NCBI GenBank assembly: GCA_022828145.1
Contig: JAJEJA010000087.1
Coordinates: 1-64,000 of the forward strand
DNA: 64,000 bases
Reading direction: 5' to 3'
Source of the DNA: Candidatus Poribacteria bacterium
GTDB lineage: Bacteria > Poribacteria > WGA-4E > WGA-3G
Below the pieces are notes generated by a model. It had not been told where the DNA came from. It saw only the letters and a list, made by a program, of their open reading frames with translations, and ran no database searches. Below, one piece after another: positions 13,661-43,728 of the stretch. Position 1 is the first letter of the stretch. Each line of letters opens with the position of its first letter. Made by a program: the position numbers and the translations under genes.

Positions 13661-15610
13661 ATGAAAACAGTACGGCTATCCCTCATAACACTTCTCTTCA
13701 ATTTTCTACTAATCCTACCAAACACCTTTGCTCAAGATTATACAACTTGGAGTCTACCCGATGGTGCTATGGCACGACTCGGTAAAGGTAAAATAACTGG
13801 TAATATTGCATTCACACCTGATGGTAATCGGCTTGCGGTTGCCAGTTCTATCGGTATATGGATTTATGATGTGCGTCCTGGGAAAGAAAAGGAACTCGAT
13901 TTACTCACTGGACATACAGGAAGTGTCACCGTCATTGCATTCTCTCCTGATGGCAAAATACTCGCAAGTGGAGGAAGAGACGGAACGATACGATTATGGG
14001 ACGTTGTAACGGGAGAACAGAAAAAACAACTCATAGGACACAAATGGACAATATCTGCATTAGCGTTTTCTCCTGATGGACAAACACTCGCATCCGCAAT
14101 TGGACATGAGGCTGAAATGATTCCTCCACAGATTGGTATAGAGATAGATATTAAATTATGGAACATAGAGACTGGTGAAGTCGCAGCTACATTCAGAGGT
14201 CACGGTAAAGATATAACGTCATTAGCGTTTTCACCTGATGAAAAGACACTTGCAAGTAGTGGTAAGGATAGCAAGGTATTATTGTGGAATGTTGCAACTG
14301 GCAGAAATGCCATGCTATTAACTGAACATGATGAAAATGTTTTCTACATAGGTTTTTCACCTGATGGAAAAACTATCGCTACAGGCAGCTGGGACGACAC
14401 CGTGAAACTTTGGGATGCAACGACAAGTAGTCTCAAGAATACAATTATTGAGAAGGGGTTTGTAGGTGTTTCTTCAGTAGCATTTTCACCTAAAGACTCA
14501 ACTATTGCTGTCGGAGGCCACGATACAATTCGGCTTTGGGATCTGCAGACAAAAACCCATATAAGGTCATTCAAGGGACATGGTGGAAACATTTCTTCAA
14601 TTGCATTTTCTCCAGATGGCAACACGTTTGCCACTGTTGGTGATAGGTTTGATAATACAATTATGTTATGGGATTTGCGGGCAGCGAAACATAGAACAAC
14701 AATTAAGGAGCATACCTCAGCTGTTAGGTGTCTAACCTATTCTCCAGATGGAAAAACAATTGCCTCAGGTGGGAGGAATGGGGATGGCTATTTATGGGAT
14801 GCGCAAACAGGAGAACGCAAGGCAACACTAAAGGGACATTACGATGAGATGAAATTTATAACCTATACATCTGATGGCAGTACCGTCATTACCGGGGGAC
14901 GGAATAGGTCAGTCCATCAATGGGAGGGACGCAAACGTCTACTACAGACACGGACAAGAAAACCGAAATCTTCACTTCGTCTTGCAACAACCTCCGGTGT
15001 TTCTCGTATTCGATCAATGACATACTCTCCCGATGGTAATTTCGTTGCAGCTACAGGTAGGGACAAATGGATTCTGATGATATGGAATGCCAGAACTGGA
15101 CGTAAGGTAAATGTTCATAGCGATCAATCACATAGATCATGGCGTGTTCTCTTTTCTCCAGATGGTAGTATTCTCGCTGAGGCAGATAATACTTTGAAAA
15201 TCCGATTGTGGAATCCTAAAACAGGACAGATCACAAAAACGTTAAACCTACATGGCCGTTTTGAACAAAGAAATACGCACATGGCATTTTCTGCTGATGG
15301 TAAACTCTTAGCTAATACAAGAGAAGAGGATACTGTGCAAATTTGGGATGTGGCATCGGGAAAAGAGGTAGCTTTGATGAAAATGCCAGAATCGGGTGTT
15401 ACAAAAGTCCAGTTTTCACCGAACGGTGCTCTAATCGCTACAGCTTTTAAGGATGGTACGATGCACATATTTAGCAGGCACACAGAGGAACACTTAGCAG
15501 GTTATAAAGGACATACGGAAGGTATTTCTGCCCTCACATTTTCTCCTGATAGTCGTGCGATTGCCAGTGGTAGTGATGATGGGACTATCCTAATCTGGGA
15601 ATTGCAGTAG
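13661..15610 (+). CDS. Secreted WD40 double beta-propeller protein
   Basis: 649 residues from the ATG at 13661, preceded by GGAGGGG (a GTG five codons earlier is the longer alternative). A signal peptide (VRLSLITLLFNFLLILP, cleavage near FAQ) precedes a conserved entry segment, TWSLPDGAMARLGKGK, then 14 WD-type blades counted from the xLWDxxTG strands and AFSPDGKxLA motifs. That fits two seven-bladed propellers. The entry segment and blades closely match the sensor half of the sigma-WD40 protein encoded next (15734). Bacterial WD40 domains are protein-binding scaffolds; no catalytic domain is present. It is probably extracytoplasmic. It might compete with or present a ligand to the sigma-WD40 protein; that is inference from homology and adjacency only. 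Confidence 0.8.
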   Translation: MKTVRLSLITLLFNFLLILPNTFAQDYTTWSLPDGAMARLGKGKITGNIAFTPDGNRLAVASSIGIWIYDVRPGKEKELDLLTGHTGSVTVIAFSPDGKILASGGRDGTIRLWDVVTGEQKKQLIGHKWTISALAFSPDGQTLASAIGHEAEMIPPQIGIEIDIKLWNIETGEVAATFRGHGKDITSLAFSPDEKTLASSGKDSKVLLWNVATGRNAMLLTEHDENVFYIGFSPDGKTIATGSWDDTVKLWDATTSSLKNTIIEKGFVGVSSVAFSPKDSTIAVGGHDTIRLWDLQTKTHIRSFKGHGGNISSIAFSPDGNTFATVGDRFDNTIMLWDLRAAKHRTTIKEHTSAVRCLTYSPDGKTIASGGRNGDGYLWDAQTGERKATLKGHYDEMKFITYTSDGSTVITGGRNRSVHQWEGRKRLLQTRTRKPKSSLRLATTSGVSRIRSMTYSPDGNFVAATGRDKWILMIWNARTGRKVNVHSDQSHRSWRVLFSPDGSILAEADNTLKIRLWNPKTGQITKTLNLHGRFEQRNTHMAFSADGKLLANTREEDTVQIWDVASGKEVALMKMPESGVTKVQFSPNGALIATAFKDGTMHIFSRHTEEHLAGYKGHTEGISALTFSPDSRAIASGSDDGTILIWELQ

Positions 15611-15733
15611 TTTTTCTCAAGGTTTTTGGTTGACCCCTAATTGTTAAAGAATTATGCGACCGTTTGCTGTCCTACTCGCGTCACTATGAGTGAAGTCACA
15701 TGAATTTAATCTTTTCTTTTATTGAGGTGCCTG

Positions 15734-18463
15734 ATGAAACATAATGACGTTGAACTTATCCGTCGTGTTCTTGAGGGTGATGATTCTGCTTTTACCAGTT
15801 TGGTGATACAATACGAAAGACAGGTTCATGCTCTCGCTTGGAAAATTATTGGTGATTTCCATGTCGCTGAAGAGATAACACAGGATACCTTCCTTAAAGT
15901 CTATCAGAAACTGGATACTTTGAAGAATCCACAACAGTTTGCTGGATGGTTGTATGTTATTGCTTCCCGTTTATGTTACAAATGGAAACGAAAGAATCGT
16001 AGGCAAATAGAATTATTGGGTGACACAGAAATTGACATGTTGGATGAGACTGCCTATTCCAAATATGTTGCGGATGAAAATACTAAAGTTAGAATAGATG
16101 CACAACGTAAGGTCGTCCATAAATTGCTCTCAAAACTACAGGAGAGTGAACGTACGGTGATGGTGCTGCATTACTTTAGTGAAATGACCTGTGAAGAAAT
16201 AAGTCGCTTCTTAGGTGTATCTACCAGCGCAATCAAAAGTCGCCTTAGTCGGGCAAGACAACGGCTGAAGAAGGACGAACCGATGATTCGAGAAGCACTC
16301 AGCAATTTTCAGATTTCCCCAAACTTAACTCAAGACATAATCAGACAGATTAGACATCTCAAGCCCGTTACGCCATCTGGAGGCAATCCTTTTCTTCCTT
16401 GGTTGATGGCTGCTTCCAGTTTTGTCTTAGTTGTGTTGATGCTTGGAATGGGAAGTAAAAGATTAGCACGATACCAGCAACCCTACAGTCTGAATTTGGA
16501 GGCTGCTATGTCAGTGGAACTTATTGATGCACAAATAGTCCAGAATATAGATGAAAAACAGAATCTCAGAACCTTGCAAGGTAATAGGTCAGATACAATC
16601 GGTACAGATAACAATGACGGTCAGGAATCAGACCAGGCTTTCACGGATCAAGTGGATTATACGCAATGGGGATTACCTGATGGTGCGAAAGCACGTATTG
16701 GTAAAGGTTGGTTAACAGGGAATGTGGCATTCTCACCAGATGGCAGACGACTTGCAGTTGCAGGTATCATCGGTACTTGGCTTTATGATATACGACCTGG
16801 GAAGATAAAAGAACTTGATCTGCTGGCTGGACATACTGACAGGGTTCGATTCGTATCGTTTTCTCCGGATGGCAGTAGAATCGCAAGTGCAAGTAACGAT
16901 ATGACGGTGCGTTTATGGGAGGCAGCCACAGGAGAACACATAACAACACTTGAAGGACATACAGGACCAGTCGGTCGCTTAGCGTTTTCACCGGATGGAA
17001 AAACAATCGCTACTGGAAGTTCAGACCATACAGTAATGTTATGGGATGCTTACACAGGAAAACATAAGAAAACACTAAAAGGACATTCTGATTGGGTTTG
17101 TTCTATAGCATATTCACCTGATGGAGATACTATCGCTACTGGAAGTGGAGATTACACTACCCGTTTGTGGGACGCACACACAGGAGAACATAAGAAAACA
17201 CTAAAAGGACATTCTGATGATGTAGATACCGTAGCATTCTCACCTGATGGAAAGACAATCGCTACCGGAAGTGAAGATAAGACTGTCTGGTTGTGGGATA
17301 CGCAAACAGCAAAACACATTACCACCCTCAATGGACATACAGCAGCTGTAATGACTGTTATCTATTCTCCAGATGGGGATACTATTATTACCGAAGGTTC
17401 AGACAAGACAGTGCGTCTATGGGACGCAGAAACAGGGAAACAGATACGCAAGACTATACTTGAAGATCAAGAGAGGTTGCCCATTTCCGTAGCATTTTCT
17501 CCAGATGGAGAGACAATCGCTATTCCAAATGATTATGGTGTGCAATTGTGGAATGTCAATACCGGTCAACAGAAAGATGGAATTACAGGACATATAAACG
17601 CGGGAGGTGAAGGTATAACCTTTTCTCCAGATGGTAAGACGATTGCCTTCGGAGATGATGAACGGAATGTCCAGTTGTGGGACGTGAACACAACACAACC
17701 GAAAATGGTCCTTGCGGGACATACAGGACGTGTCCGAAGTATCGCTTTTTCACCAGATGGGAATACAATCGCATCGGGCAGCTACGACAAAACAGCAAAG
17801 TTGTGGGATGTTAACATTGGACATACACTCAATACGCTTACCGGTCATACGAAATATGTAAACGCAATCGCTTATTCACCGGATGGAAAGACTATCGCCA
17901 CCGGTAGTGATGACAAAACTGTGAGGTTGTGGGATGCTCAAACAGGTGATCATATATCCACACTAACAGGTCTTAAGAATACTGTGACGGATGTTGCATA
18001 TCTTCCAGATGGCAACACTTTCGTATGTTCTCTGTGGTTTGGTTGTAGAGTGGAGTTGTGGAATGCGCATTCATGGGAACGTAAAGGCAAATTTCGTTTG
18101 CGTTCATCGAAATTTAGTACGCCAGCCACTTTTGTAGCGTGTTCACCTGATAGTAGTACTCTCGCCACATTGGCTGCAAAAAAGTCAGTGCAATTGTGGG
18201 ATTTAAATACAGAAGAGAGTATCGCTACATTTAAGGGACATACGGATGAAGTCACTTCAGCTGCATTCTCTCCGGATGGCAGCATTCTCGCGACAGGGAG
18301 TGATGACTATACAGTGCGGCTGTGGGATATTCATAATAAAACACATTTAACCACACTACAAGGACATACATTGAGTATCCAATCCGTTGCGTTTTCGCCG
18401 GATGGAAGTACACTCGCCAGTCTTAGTTATGATGGAACGATTCTATTTTGGAAAATACATTGA
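15734..18463 (+). CDS. Membrane-tethered ECF sigma factor fused to a 14-blade WD40 sensor
   Basis: 909 residues from the ATG at 15734 (GAGG eight bases upstream; TTG four codons earlier possible). Residues 1-90 are sigma region 2 (AEEITQDTFLKVYQKL, PQQFAGWLYVIASRL). Residues about 115-170 are region 4 with its helix-turn-helix (MTCEEISRFLGVSTSAIKSRLSRARQRL). One hydrophobic segment at about 223-240 (WLMAASSFVLVVLMLGMG) follows, then a linker. From residue 308 comes the entry segment (DYTQWGLPDGAKARIGKG) and 14 WD40 blades. The topology predicts a cytoplasmic sigma and an extracytoplasmic propeller, a one-protein signal transducer without a separate anti-sigma factor. The adjacent secreted WD40 protein is its close paralogue. 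How the sigma half would be released or activated cannot be seen. Confidence 0.85.
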   Translation: MKHNDVELIRRVLEGDDSAFTSLVIQYERQVHALAWKIIGDFHVAEEITQDTFLKVYQKLDTLKNPQQFAGWLYVIASRLCYKWKRKNRRQIELLGDTEIDMLDETAYSKYVADENTKVRIDAQRKVVHKLLSKLQESERTVMVLHYFSEMTCEEISRFLGVSTSAIKSRLSRARQRLKKDEPMIREALSNFQISPNLTQDIIRQIRHLKPVTPSGGNPFLPWLMAASSFVLVVLMLGMGSKRLARYQQPYSLNLEAAMSVELIDAQIVQNIDEKQNLRTLQGNRSDTIGTDNNDGQESDQAFTDQVDYTQWGLPDGAKARIGKGWLTGNVAFSPDGRRLAVAGIIGTWLYDIRPGKIKELDLLAGHTDRVRFVSFSPDGSRIASASNDMTVRLWEAATGEHITTLEGHTGPVGRLAFSPDGKTIATGSSDHTVMLWDAYTGKHKKTLKGHSDWVCSIAYSPDGDTIATGSGDYTTRLWDAHTGEHKKTLKGHSDDVDTVAFSPDGKTIATGSEDKTVWLWDTQTAKHITTLNGHTAAVMTVIYSPDGDTIITEGSDKTVRLWDAETGKQIRKTILEDQERLPISVAFSPDGETIAIPNDYGVQLWNVNTGQQKDGITGHINAGGEGITFSPDGKTIAFGDDERNVQLWDVNTTQPKMVLAGHTGRVRSIAFSPDGNTIASGSYDKTAKLWDVNIGHTLNTLTGHTKYVNAIAYSPDGKTIATGSDDKTVRLWDAQTGDHISTLTGLKNTVTDVAYLPDGNTFVCSLWFGCRVELWNAHSWERKGKFRLRSSKFSTPATFVACSPDSSTLATLAAKKSVQLWDLNTEESIATFKGHTDEVTSAAFSPDGSILATGSDDYTVRLWDIHNKTHLTTLQGHTLSIQSVAFSPDGSTLASLSYDGTILFWKIH

Positions 18464-18489
18464 AACGTCGAAAACGCTGGAGGACACAG

Positions 18490-18987
18490 ATGCGATCTAA
18501 CATAATTTCATTGAGTGGCGTACAGGGGGCAGGAAAGTCAACAGTAGCAGAACATCTAAAGACGCATATACCCGACTCTATTATCTATGATGGTAAACGT
18601 GAATTTAAAATATATTTAGAAAATCAAGAGGAAACAGGGACTGTTATCATTGTTGAATATGCATCTGTCATACTCTTTCCTGATGGATACTTAGATCCGA
18701 GAAATACAAAAAGGTTCTCAAAATGTGATCTCATTGACGTTCAGTACTTTCAAAAAGGTAAACATTTTTTTCTGGACGTACTGTCCGAGATGACGCAGTA
18801 TGAAAGACTGTTAAAACGAAACAACGGAATAGATAGTGGATACGTACAACTCATGGGGAAGGAGTACGTTTCCAGATCCCAATATCTAAGAATGTTGGCA
18901 AACAAAGGGTATTTTACTAAGGTCATAAGTGTTGACGAAAAATCAGTTGACACAATTACGCAAGAAATAATGGATGTAATAACCTAA
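18490..18987 (+). CDS. P-loop NTPase / small kinase-like protein
   Basis: 165 residues from the ATG at 18490, which has GGAGG eight bases upstream. A longer frame from 18448 would overlap the preceding gene. The N-terminus ISLSGVQGAGKSTVAEHL is a Walker A motif (GxxGxGKST) as in nucleotide kinases and AAA_33-type ATPases. Further features: IIVEYASVILFPDGYLD (possible Walker B region) and YERLLKRNNG. The usual lid and nucleoside-binding motifs of named kinases were not recognised. It follows the sigma-WD40 gene by 26 bp and is probably co-transcribed. Substrate unknown. Confidence 0.6.
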   Translation: MRSNIISLSGVQGAGKSTVAEHLKTHIPDSIIYDGKREFKIYLENQEETGTVIIVEYASVILFPDGYLDPRNTKRFSKCDLIDVQYFQKGKHFFLDVLSEMTQYERLLKRNNGIDSGYVQLMGKEYVSRSQYLRMLANKGYFTKVISVDEKSVDTITQEIMDVIT

Positions 18988-42660: not shown

Positions 42661-43728
42661 CTACTTATCTGCGGCTGTTGTGAGTTCAATTGCGGTACCC
42701 GTTTCGGAGGATTTGAGTCCAGCAAGCAAAATCTCAGTAGCATGTCGCGCCGTGTATACATTTGAGAGAGGAGGTTGTGTCCCCGCCCGGATATGTTCAG
42801 CGAAATGTGCGTGCATTCCACTGGGTGCAGCGTCGTTACAGTCTATCGCTTTTGTATCCACCGGTGCATGTTCTCGTGTATAGGATGTAGGTGTCCACTG
42901 TGTGAGAGCCGCGCCATCTTTACCGGGCATCGTGAACTTGCCAGCAGTACCGTGTACACTTGATTCGCCTGTTCGTGCTGGATCACACCAGCTGGTTTCA
43001 GCGGTAACGAGTCCACCCGACTGCATTTCAAGCACGAGTGTTGCGACATCTTCTAATTCAGTTGGTTTGTCGAATGTTGATACGAAACCTGTGACGCGTT
43101 TGAAAGTACCGAGCATAGCAACAAGACCGGAGACAGCATAAACCCCCATATCAAAAAGTGCGCCGACGCTTGCTTGTTTCGCATCGAAAAACCATAGGTC
43201 ATCTCCCGATTCACCGAAAATATCTCGGATTTCGGCATAGTAAATCTCAGGTCCTCCGTGGCTGCTTCGCATTCTTGCGCCAGATACGCGTCCGATGGCT
43301 TCTTCGGCGATCAGTTGACGGACTTTATAGATGGCAGCACTGAAATGTGGTAGACACATGACTGTTTTACCGCTTGCTTCGGTAGCAGCAACAAATTGAT
43401 TTGCTTCGTCCATTTCGCCGCAGAGCGGTTTTTGCATCAACACATGTTTGCCTGCTTCTAACGCTTTAACACCCCATGAAACGTGTAATGGATGTGGGGT
43501 ACCAACGAGTATAGCATCAAGTGTGTCATCTGCGATAATTGCGTCGTAATCCTGTGTCCAACGTGATATATCAAATTCTTGACATTGATGTTTTAGGCGG
43601 TGTTCGCGTCTGCCACCAATGACAACAACTTCAAAATCTTCTCCTCTTTTCAAATCTGGTAGATGCATGCGGCAGACGATACCGCCAGCACCAATAACAC
43701 CGAGTTTAAATTTATCCATATTTCTCAT
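42661..43728 (-). CDS. Gfo/Idh/MocA-family oxidoreductase
   Basis: 355 residues. Rossmann site at the N-terminus (LGVIGAGGIVCRMHLPDL), family signature HVLMQKPLCGEMDEANQFV (the usual EKP reads QKP, keeping the catalytic Lys), and VMCLPHFSAAIYKVRQL. The C-terminal domain ends in ARHATEILLAGLKSSETG, as common in this family. NAD(P)-linked sugar dehydrogenase of unknown substrate. AAGGA lies five bases before the ATG at 43728. Divergent from the methyltransferase gene with only 12 bp between start codons, so the two must share or overlap control DNA. Confidence 0.9.
   Translation of the reverse strand: MRNMDKFKLGVIGAGGIVCRMHLPDLKRGEDFEVVVIGGRREHRLKHQCQEFDISRWTQDYDAIIADDTLDAILVGTPHPLHVSWGVKALEAGKHVLMQKPLCGEMDEANQFVAATEASGKTVMCLPHFSAAIYKVRQLIAEEAIGRVSGARMRSSHGGPEIYYAEIRDIFGESGDDLWFFDAKQASVGALFDMGVYAVSGLVAMLGTFKRVTGFVSTFDKPTELEDVATLVLEMQSGGLVTAETSWCDPARTGESSVHGTAGKFTMPGKDGAALTQWTPTSYTREHAPVDTKAIDCNDAAPSGMHAHFAEHIRAGTQPPLSNVYTARHATEILLAGLKSSETGTAIELTTAADK

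Follow-up and report, generated by a model that had tools for sequence, protein, structure and literature searches.

The gene at positions 15,734 to 18,463 of a 64,000-nucleotide stretch of Candidatus Poribacteria DNA (contig JAJEJA010000087.1, assembly GCA_022828145.1; the whole stretch is referred to here as the window) probably encodes a transmembrane (TM) signalling receptor in one polypeptide, with an extracytoplasmic function (ECF) sigma factor as its output domain. To relay a signal into the cell, bacteria usually depend on a sigma factor together with an anti-sigma factor and proteases. In the arrangement that we favor, the sigma part would sit in the cytoplasm on a single membrane helix, a double WD40 propeller would lie outside the cytoplasmic membrane, the tether would keep the sigma factor off its promoters, and two cuts would free it to read, first of all, the promoter of its own gene. 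Poribacteria are uncultured bacteria best known from marine sponges. The gene and its parts, all on the plus strand, are:

15,734 to 18,463, plus strand: ECF sigma-TM-double WD40 propeller protein of 909 amino acids (open reading frame and domain matches)
15,649 to 15,688, plus strand: ECF-type promoter, with -35 element TTATGCGACC, an 18-base spacer (that of the matrix used) and -10 element CGCGTCACTATG (family matrix)
15,788 to 16,273, plus strand: ECF sigma regions 2 and 4, residues 19–180 (TIGR02937), with residue 169 at 16,238–16,240
16,319 to 16,360, plus strand: conserved linker helix PNLTQDIIRQIRHL, residues 196–209, NLTENIM in the family (family alignment, AlphaFold2)
16,391 to 16,447, plus strand: predicted membrane segment, residues 220–238 (hydropathy and family conservation; no AlphaFold2 helix)
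16,454 to 16,561, plus strand: conserved juxtamembrane stretch, residues 241–276, containing RYQQPYSLNLEAAMSVELIDAQIV (family alignment)
16,685 to 18,454, plus strand: 14-blade WD40 double propeller, residues 318–907 (Pfam, AlphaFold2, PDB matches)

The open reading frame (ORF) runs from an ATG at 15,734 to its stop at 18,463, as an earlier sequence-only reading had placed it, and a TTG start at 15,722 is possible. The sigma part matches TIGR02937 (sigma70-ECF) over residues 19–180 (E = 4.3e-25; 88.3 bits against a cut-off of 42.9); with regions 2 and 4 present, no region 3 and a score above the family cut-off, it belongs to the ECF group. In the second of two AlphaFold2 models, the sigma part forms two helical domains with a predicted local distance difference test score (pLDDT) of mostly 80–94, and residues 212–310 score mostly below 50. 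Sigma regions 2 and 4 had been read as intact, which these results bear out, and the promoter co-variation described below suggests that they are under selection. The 14 WD blades that had been counted behind the membrane segment are also recovered, since AlphaFold2 draws 55 strands over residues 318–907, making 14 four-stranded blades with pLDDT above 85 in most blocks. Among PDB structures matching the propeller model, the repetitive propeller 2ymu ranks first, while 1nr0, entitled “Two Seven-Bladed Beta-Propeller Domains”, ranks 32nd. Among the cysteines of residues 1–310 in the window protein and 108 relatives, Cys81 (window 15,974–15,976), which lies in sigma region 2, occurs in 106 of 109 and has no partner conserved to the same degree; Cys153 occurs in 36 of 109, and no other column holds more than 10.

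Between the sigma part and the propeller, residues 220–238 form the only separate 19-residue stretch of the protein above 1.6 on the Kyte-Doolittle scale (mean 2.11), the WD part peaking at 0.83. This was calibrated on 32 window ORFs of at least 250 amino acids, named by eye except for MutL. MutL and the TruD-like and UvrD-like proteins peak at 0.89–1.14 and two ABC-transporter-like proteins at 2.12 and 2.38. The exception is a probably soluble oxidoreductase-like ORF (42,661–43,728) that reaches 1.76, so the scale alone is no proof of a membrane segment. Across the family, a 19-residue segment of at least 1.6 lies at the expected place in 145 of 145 distinct ORFs with sigma and linker parts (31 from the genome of the window and 114 from relatives, identical proteins counted once and partial ORFs at contig edges included), a figure that has to be read knowing that the linker model was built from members having the segment. 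Lysine and arginine are more numerous in the 15 residues before the segment than in the 15 after it in 119 of these ORFs, equal in 18 and fewer in 8, a positive-inside bias with the N side in. Within and beside the segment, Pro222 is present in 109 of 109 sequences (the window protein and 108 relatives), Pro219 in 108 and Gly238 in 107. Sigma-less derivatives (L041_5212, L121_1469 and others) have the segment close to the N-terminus, where an export signal or an anchor is expected. The proposal of a single membrane segment thus holds up on hydropathy and charge bias, with the AlphaFold2 result weighed further below.

The part that follows the segment is equally characteristic of the family. 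The motif FQxPYSLDAxSE is kept while the sensors behind it change, with Gln248 in 109 of 109 sequences, Tyr251 in 108 and Pro250 in 104; each of the three is also found in at least 90% of 28 members from the genome of the window. Because it stays while the domain behind it changes, the stretch of residues 241–276 is a good candidate for a site-1 cleavage site or a coupling region. By simple motif counts, the sensors of 130 complete members comprise 54 WD40, 57 BNR/Asp-box, one weak BNR and 18 others. Pfam domains found behind the cassette are Sortilin/BNR (locus L031), the M16 C domain (L049), C-type lectin (L048), Redoxin (L104), leucine-rich repeats (L133) and Big_5 (L084 and L115), and the complete “other” members L111 and L086 have no Pfam match at E 0.01.

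Rather than the single protein that was first supposed, the window protein is one member of a large, sensor-swapped family, belonging to Poribacteria instead of Planctomycetes. All 75 loci from a scan of named genomes with the N-terminal alignment are from Candidatus or uncultured Poribacteria, among the best 80 matches, a sample that is uninformative on other phyla. Residues 1–272 have 63 matches in the genome of the window, of which 39 reach E 4e-38 or better, pieces at contig edges being counted; the linker-TM alignment has 35, counting copies without a sigma part. In a phylum-wide count, with at most 53 candidates scored per genome, the linker-TM cassette occurs in 67 of 84 genomes. Matches per genome number 14–42 in 17 relatives of the same genus, 2 to 65 in the sister genus g2, 1–2 in g3, 1–2 in family f2 and 0–3 in f4, while the three f3 genomes and the 12 from outside the order have no match.

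A common motif, GAATTATGCAMC-N16-18-CGTCACTATA, is found upstream of the family genes. With a two-block matrix at 10 bits or more, 115 of 138 upstream regions pass (20 of 29 from the genome of the window) compared to 1 of 138 shuffled regions. Since the promoter matrices draw on sites of these genes themselves, hits before ECF genes are partly training data and the shuffles serve as the control. The median distance from the start of the -35 core to the start codon is 76 bases, the spacer is 18 bases in 90 sites, 17 in 22 and 16 in 3, and the -10 CGTC is found with C in 106, G in 105, T in 112 and C in 115 of the 115 sites. In the window, the site at 15,649 is the best of both strands at 32.5 bits, compared to 14.2 for the next real site and 17.0 for the best of 20 one-strand shuffles, although it is itself among the sites used for the matrix. 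A strict pattern has nine hits in the 5.06 Mb genome and none in the reversed control, and a pattern allowing two mismatches has 27 compared to 3. Seven of the nine strict hits are followed by family genes, one of which is sigma-truncated and another about 246 bases distant, the remaining two hits being on contigs C94 and C123. A scan of the fetched loci gave 108 sites, 95 before family genes, 10 before other ORFs and three before none. Seven of those 10 ORFs look secreted or lipoprotein by eye and four are of one kind; for comparison, 163 of 450 neighbours have a hydrophobic N-terminus.

The promoters also vary together with the sigma factors. Counting from 0, base 8 of the -35 block tracks residue 169, which lies in the region 4 recognition helix, the pairs among 115 genes being C with Ser in 96, A with Asn in 9 and T with Leu in 5, with four exceptions (A-Thr twice, A-Ser once, T-Thr once) and one gap. 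The normalised mutual information of this pair is 0.82, against a median of 0.08 over positions. On a tree built without region 4, base 8 and residue 169 change in the same direction in 4.9 of 5 independent pairs on average, the top value of 128 positions. Read plainly, these data would mean that the promoter recognised by each sigma factor is that of its own gene. This co-variation suggests that the tethered sigma factors still work on DNA, and from the sequences they look like working, self-wired regulators. Base 10 of the -35 block (A or C) is tied by mutual information to region 4 residues 157, 148, 175 and 165; we make no claim of a second code, since the top position on the tree is residue 12.

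Several sites and genes outside the family were also considered. The C94 site is a perfect family promoter; behind it come the short remnant of an ECF start and a secreted WD40 gene (L188:2592-4445), which looks like a receptor minus its sigma part and tether. As a regulon target it was set aside, since the ECF start (MKDNDAELI...) follows the promoter and then breaks off, so that the site is probably a relic. The C123 site, inside an opposite-strand ORF and separated by about 1.3 kb from the nearest ORF downstream on its strand, is probably due to chance. At L039:1901-3721, a lipoprotein-like ORF with a family promoter adjoins an ECF-TM-BNR gene and has weak similarity to SpoIVB (S55); with a Pfam score of 23.9 against a cut-off of 25, its assignment to the S55/SpoIVB peptidases is only a lead. 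A family site also precedes the HtrA-TPR gene L035_7878. The cases in which HtrA genes adjoin ECF genes (C36, C41) are about as many as chance would produce by a rough estimate, one of them with a family site.

The position of the sensor can be approached through neighbouring genes, beginning with the gene that adjoins the window gene:

13,661 to 15,610, plus strand: WD40 paralog with a Sec-type signal peptide by eye (MKTVRLSLITLLFNFLLILPNTFA), without a family promoter

This secreted paralogous propeller, to which the sequence-only reading had drawn attention, is real, sharing 38% identity with the window protein over 631 aligned columns. The gene row is kept in the nearest syntenic relative seen (L070; JAPOQK, APA_bin_83), in which the end of mutL is followed by the secreted WD40 gene in two copies and the ECF-TM-WD40 gene, and then by lipoprotein-like and GH127-like ORFs on the other strand (names read from sequence). 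Neither the upstream nor the matrix scans found a family promoter before 13,661–15,610, which is at most a possible target, and the pairing does not exceed chance. WD40 sensors lie beside a like neighbour in 19 of 54 cases, against a permutation mean of 18.6, and a WD40 neighbour is present for 16 of 54 WD40-type and 9 of 57 BNR-type ECF genes, with no clear difference. As WD40 genes are so common in the genome (382 stretches on many contigs match the window propeller), one WD40 gene beside another is not telling, and the neighbour was set aside as a proven partner.

Sensors of other kinds give a mixed picture. BNR sensors have a like neighbour in 6 of 57 cases (5.7 expected; mostly ORFs cut at the end of a stretch), while the “other” sensors have one in 8 of 18 compared to 1.7, a count reached in at most 5 of 1000 permutations. 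Four of the eight (L086, L090, L092 and L130) represent one kind of gene row and two (L043 and L088) are short WD40 members beside WD40 ORFs, so that the independent cases are L048, L049 and the one row type. In addition, the neighbour is the best match in the whole pool for 5 of 130 members (one of them, L103, a cut ORF), with 0.84 expected and at most 4 in 2000 permutations. The M16-like sensor of L049 shares 62% identity over 422 amino acids with a signal-bearing neighbour 57 bases away, and the lectin-type sensor of L048 shares 30% over 435 amino acids with a signal-bearing neighbour 10 bases away that has CarboxypepD_reg and Lectin_C domains. These are two clear cases of a sensor that is a copy of a secreted neighbour.

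Five ECF genes in the scanned loci (L049, L086, L090, L092 and L130) have no site directly upstream, and the first four of them lie downstream of a gene that carries one. The L049 row consists of a site, a 197-residue ORF, the secreted M16-like gene and the ECF-TM-M16-like gene; its site (C71:8983-9016) is weak, being found by the two-mismatch pattern only and absent from the matrix scan at 14 bits. In L086 and L092, a site and a secreted ORF are directly followed by an ORF that shares a 125-residue domain with the ECF sensor (57–63% identity). The site of L090 lies farther up (53% over the shared domain), and L130 (49%) has no site in the loci scan. The conserved segment, the positive-inside bias, the sensors copied from secreted neighbours and the N-terminal position of the segment in sigma-less relatives together make it well supported, if not proven, that the sensor lies outside the cytoplasmic membrane, as had first been proposed.

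The domain order, the conserved tether and juxtamembrane motif, the exchange of sensors, the shared promoter and the co-variation of the -35 base with the sigma-4 helix can be seen in the sequences; topology, ligand, holding-off and proteolysis go beyond them. Taken together, we infer that the propeller would sense a ligand, probably a partner protein or polymer, and that the signal would most likely lead to a cut in the juxtamembrane stretch and then to one inside the membrane. The freed sigma factor would read GAATTATGC[A/G][A/C]C-N16-18-CGTCA promoters, including, in some other members, that of the gene row encoding a secreted relative of the sensor. Candidate proteases for both cuts can be found in the genome, with one strong M50 (site-2-type) match and a second, weaker gene, as well as 21 HtrA-type matches in about 20 genes. 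Several observations weigh against this reading. Control genomes also match M50 (14 of 14) and HtrA-type proteases (12 of 14), so the presence of these proteases proves little, and no cleavage site, ligand or anti-sigma-like domain was identified. Neither AlphaFold2 model has a helix at residues 220–238, although this is better read as little information than as refutation because residues 212–310 have pLDDT mostly below 50. In the window protein, the residues on the C side of the segment are themselves basic (GSKRLARY). ECF promoters generally have AAC at -35 and CGT at -10, by a published rule (PMC8103513), but AAC occurs in at most 60 of 115 sites, the others having ACC or, as in the window, GAC. 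Below the 10-bit promoter threshold are 23 of 138 genes, including 9 of the 29 from the genome of the window, of which one (L050) has a site farther upstream (C101). Finally, a sign test on five independent pairs cannot reach p 0.05 by itself.

Among the alternatives, the one that survives best keeps the topology and omits cleavage, the sigma factor acting in the membrane while the propeller alters dimerisation or the exposure of sigma regions 2 and 4. CadC and ToxR act while membrane-bound, and the linker helix at 196–209 together with the juxtamembrane motif could couple the two sides mechanically. A sigma factor, however, must move with core polymerase, which a fixed anchor hinders. Moreover, the TM-fused ECF factor IutY (ECF243) of Pseudomonas putida, a sigma/anti-sigma fusion of iron cell-surface signalling, is described as activated by stepwise proteolysis by Prc and RseP (PMC8999054). 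We consider action in the membrane rather unlikely, and the sequence-only view that the sigma factor is permanently membrane-bound gives way to cutting and release as at least as likely.

It is improbable that the segment is not inserted, leaving a wholly cytoplasmic protein with the propeller as a protein-interaction module, as proposed for ECF57. Planctomycetes do have WD40 ECF factors (PMC8999054, PMC8567305), AlphaFold2 leaves the segment without a helix, and the genome of the window encodes four distinct ECF-WD40 proteins without a membrane segment (five rows, one a cut duplicate); the segment in 145 of 145 ORFs, its charge bias, the sensors copied from secreted proteins and the segment near the N-terminus of sigma-less derivatives speak against it. 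Still less probable is a polyprotein processed at once and constitutively into a free sigma factor and a free secreted propeller. The segment of the sigma-less L121_1469 does end in a signal-peptidase-like AFAQQ, but the window protein and the family consensus continue into FQxPYSLDA with no clear signal peptidase site by eye, and the conserved stretch would be left purposeless. An internal translation start before the segment was also considered for the TM-type members and rejected, as no recurring ribosome site is seen there by eye. Runaway duplication with little function in much of the family, the window gene itself being possibly non-functional, seems very improbable: sigma-truncated, sigma-less and stop-split copies exist (L038_6611, L041_5212, L056_3626, L100_3552/4137), but the window copy is intact, has a promoter and has an ortholog in conserved synteny in another Poribacteria genome, and the promoter-sigma co-variation suggests selection.

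These broken copies deserve a closer look. In L038:6611-10318, L041:5212-7374 and L056:3626-7054, sigma region 2 is truncated and joined to the TM segment or the sigma part is lost, and relatives that lost the sigma part keep the TM segment and propeller; L037_18102 and L117_1 are cut by the end of a stretch and hence do not count as sigma-less. The two ORFs of L100 (3552/4137) were considered as an ancestral split sigma/TM pair, but they are parted by a single in-frame stop near the end of region 4, which is more simply explained by a broken copy.

ECF factors with WD40 or TM extensions are already known (PMC8999054), and the mention in the sequence-only reading of C-terminally extended ECF factors, including WD40 forms, in Planctomycetes was accurate. 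ECF57 from that phylum has C-terminal WD40 repeats described as a protein-interaction extension (PMC8999054), and ECF-WD40 proteins are expanded in Gemmataceae (PMC8999054, PMC11032199, PMC8567305). The window protein likewise has sigma and WD40 repeats in one chain, including the WD40-like C-terminal extension typical of ECF57. In contrast, the Poribacteria family has a predicted membrane segment and a juxtamembrane motif between the two, has WD40 in only part of its members (54 of 130 complete sensors), and conserves Cys81 only, where ECF57 is described with two conserved cysteines that may link sigma regions 2 and 4 (PMC8999054). With IutY the family shares an ECF sigma factor in one chain with a C-terminal part that, here by prediction, is membrane-bound; it differs in what would lie outside, a propeller or another of several unrelated domains, with no anti-sigma domain seen. 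A FecR-like anti-sigma domain is not found at E 0.001 among the Pfam hits of L031, L040, L048 and L049, and no anti-sigma domain appears among the best 25 of 64 Pfam matches of the window protein. The actinobacterial SCO4117 (ECF52), with a C-terminal TM segment, a periplasmic proline-rich region and a carbohydrate-binding domain, and the ECF48 and ECF53 groups resemble the family in their C-terminal TM extension (PMC8999054). These three groups, from another phylum, have a zinc-finger domain and one or two TM helices; between sigma and TM segment, the same four TM-type members scanned have no zinc finger. Ser/Thr kinases of Ca. Uabimicrobium amorphum, massively expanded and mostly single-spanning, have WD40/TPR arrays predicted to be periplasmic (PMC11032199), and thus resemble the family in joining WD40 arrays to a cytoplasmic output domain, there a kinase and not a sigma factor. 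Poribacteria are described as having many WD40 proteins in a paper whose main text holds no occurrence of “sigma” (PMC3909097). Among the papers listed on Poribacteria sigma or ECF factors, on ECF proteins with WD40, TM or beta-propeller parts or C-terminal extensions, on fused extracellular sensor domains and on membrane-bound sigma factors, no account of this family came up, and a prior mention is possible. What is new is the ECF-type promoter shared by most of the family and the -35 base that tracks residue 169.

RsgI-type anti-sigma factors of Clostridium thermocellum have an outside sensor that resembles domains of the secreted proteins under their control. There, sigma factor and sensor are separate proteins, unlike the single chain of the Poribacteria family. 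Autoproteolysis of the RsgI kind would also be conceivable for the juxtamembrane stretch. Tentatively, one Poribacteria family may hold a repertoire of a fixed sigma-tether-juxtamembrane cassette (up to 65 linker matches per genome) with swapped outside domains. In some circuits, the outside domain would derive from a secreted gene in the row of the receptor, which would thereby sense the products that its own regulon secretes, and each circuit would be wired by the -35 base that residue 169 reads. The weak L049 site and the small number of sensor-twin cases keep us from putting this more firmly.

Other ECF fusions are found in the same genome. Two ORFs (L060:2821-4578 on contig C89 and L054:1934-3199 on contig C81) join an ECF sigma factor in frame with an FtsZ/tubulin GTPase (Pfam Tubulin, E = 1.6e-36 and 6.8e-44, respectively). 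A long form, with one frame from sigma to the end of FtsZ and some about 1400 amino acids, occurs in 8 of 12 other genomes of the genus searched, and separate FtsZ-like ORFs of ordinary length are also present. Nine TM-less fusions (L043_3278, L044_5720, L058_444, L059_2149, L060_2821, L054_1934, L054_14856, L054_5638 and L054_10375) have a purine-rich, ribosome-binding-like site and an in-frame ATG at the junction of sigma factor and partner, a count made without a chance control. Given this junction, the C-terminal partner of these fusions may also be made alone. Directly 3′ of the window gene lies one further ORF, and the syntenic relative L070 has no ORF of at least 150 amino acids at the corresponding place:

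18,475 to 18,987, plus strand: small P-loop ORF (AAA_18 match under the cut-off)

In the receptor family, a single gene comprises sensor, tether and sigma factor and can, as a unit, be duplicated and given a new sensor, which this lineage did dozens of times. The promoter motif offers a handle on the genes controlled by each receptor. If our reading is true, these uncultured bacteria would possess a receptor system that is modular by nature and has a promoter code that can be read.

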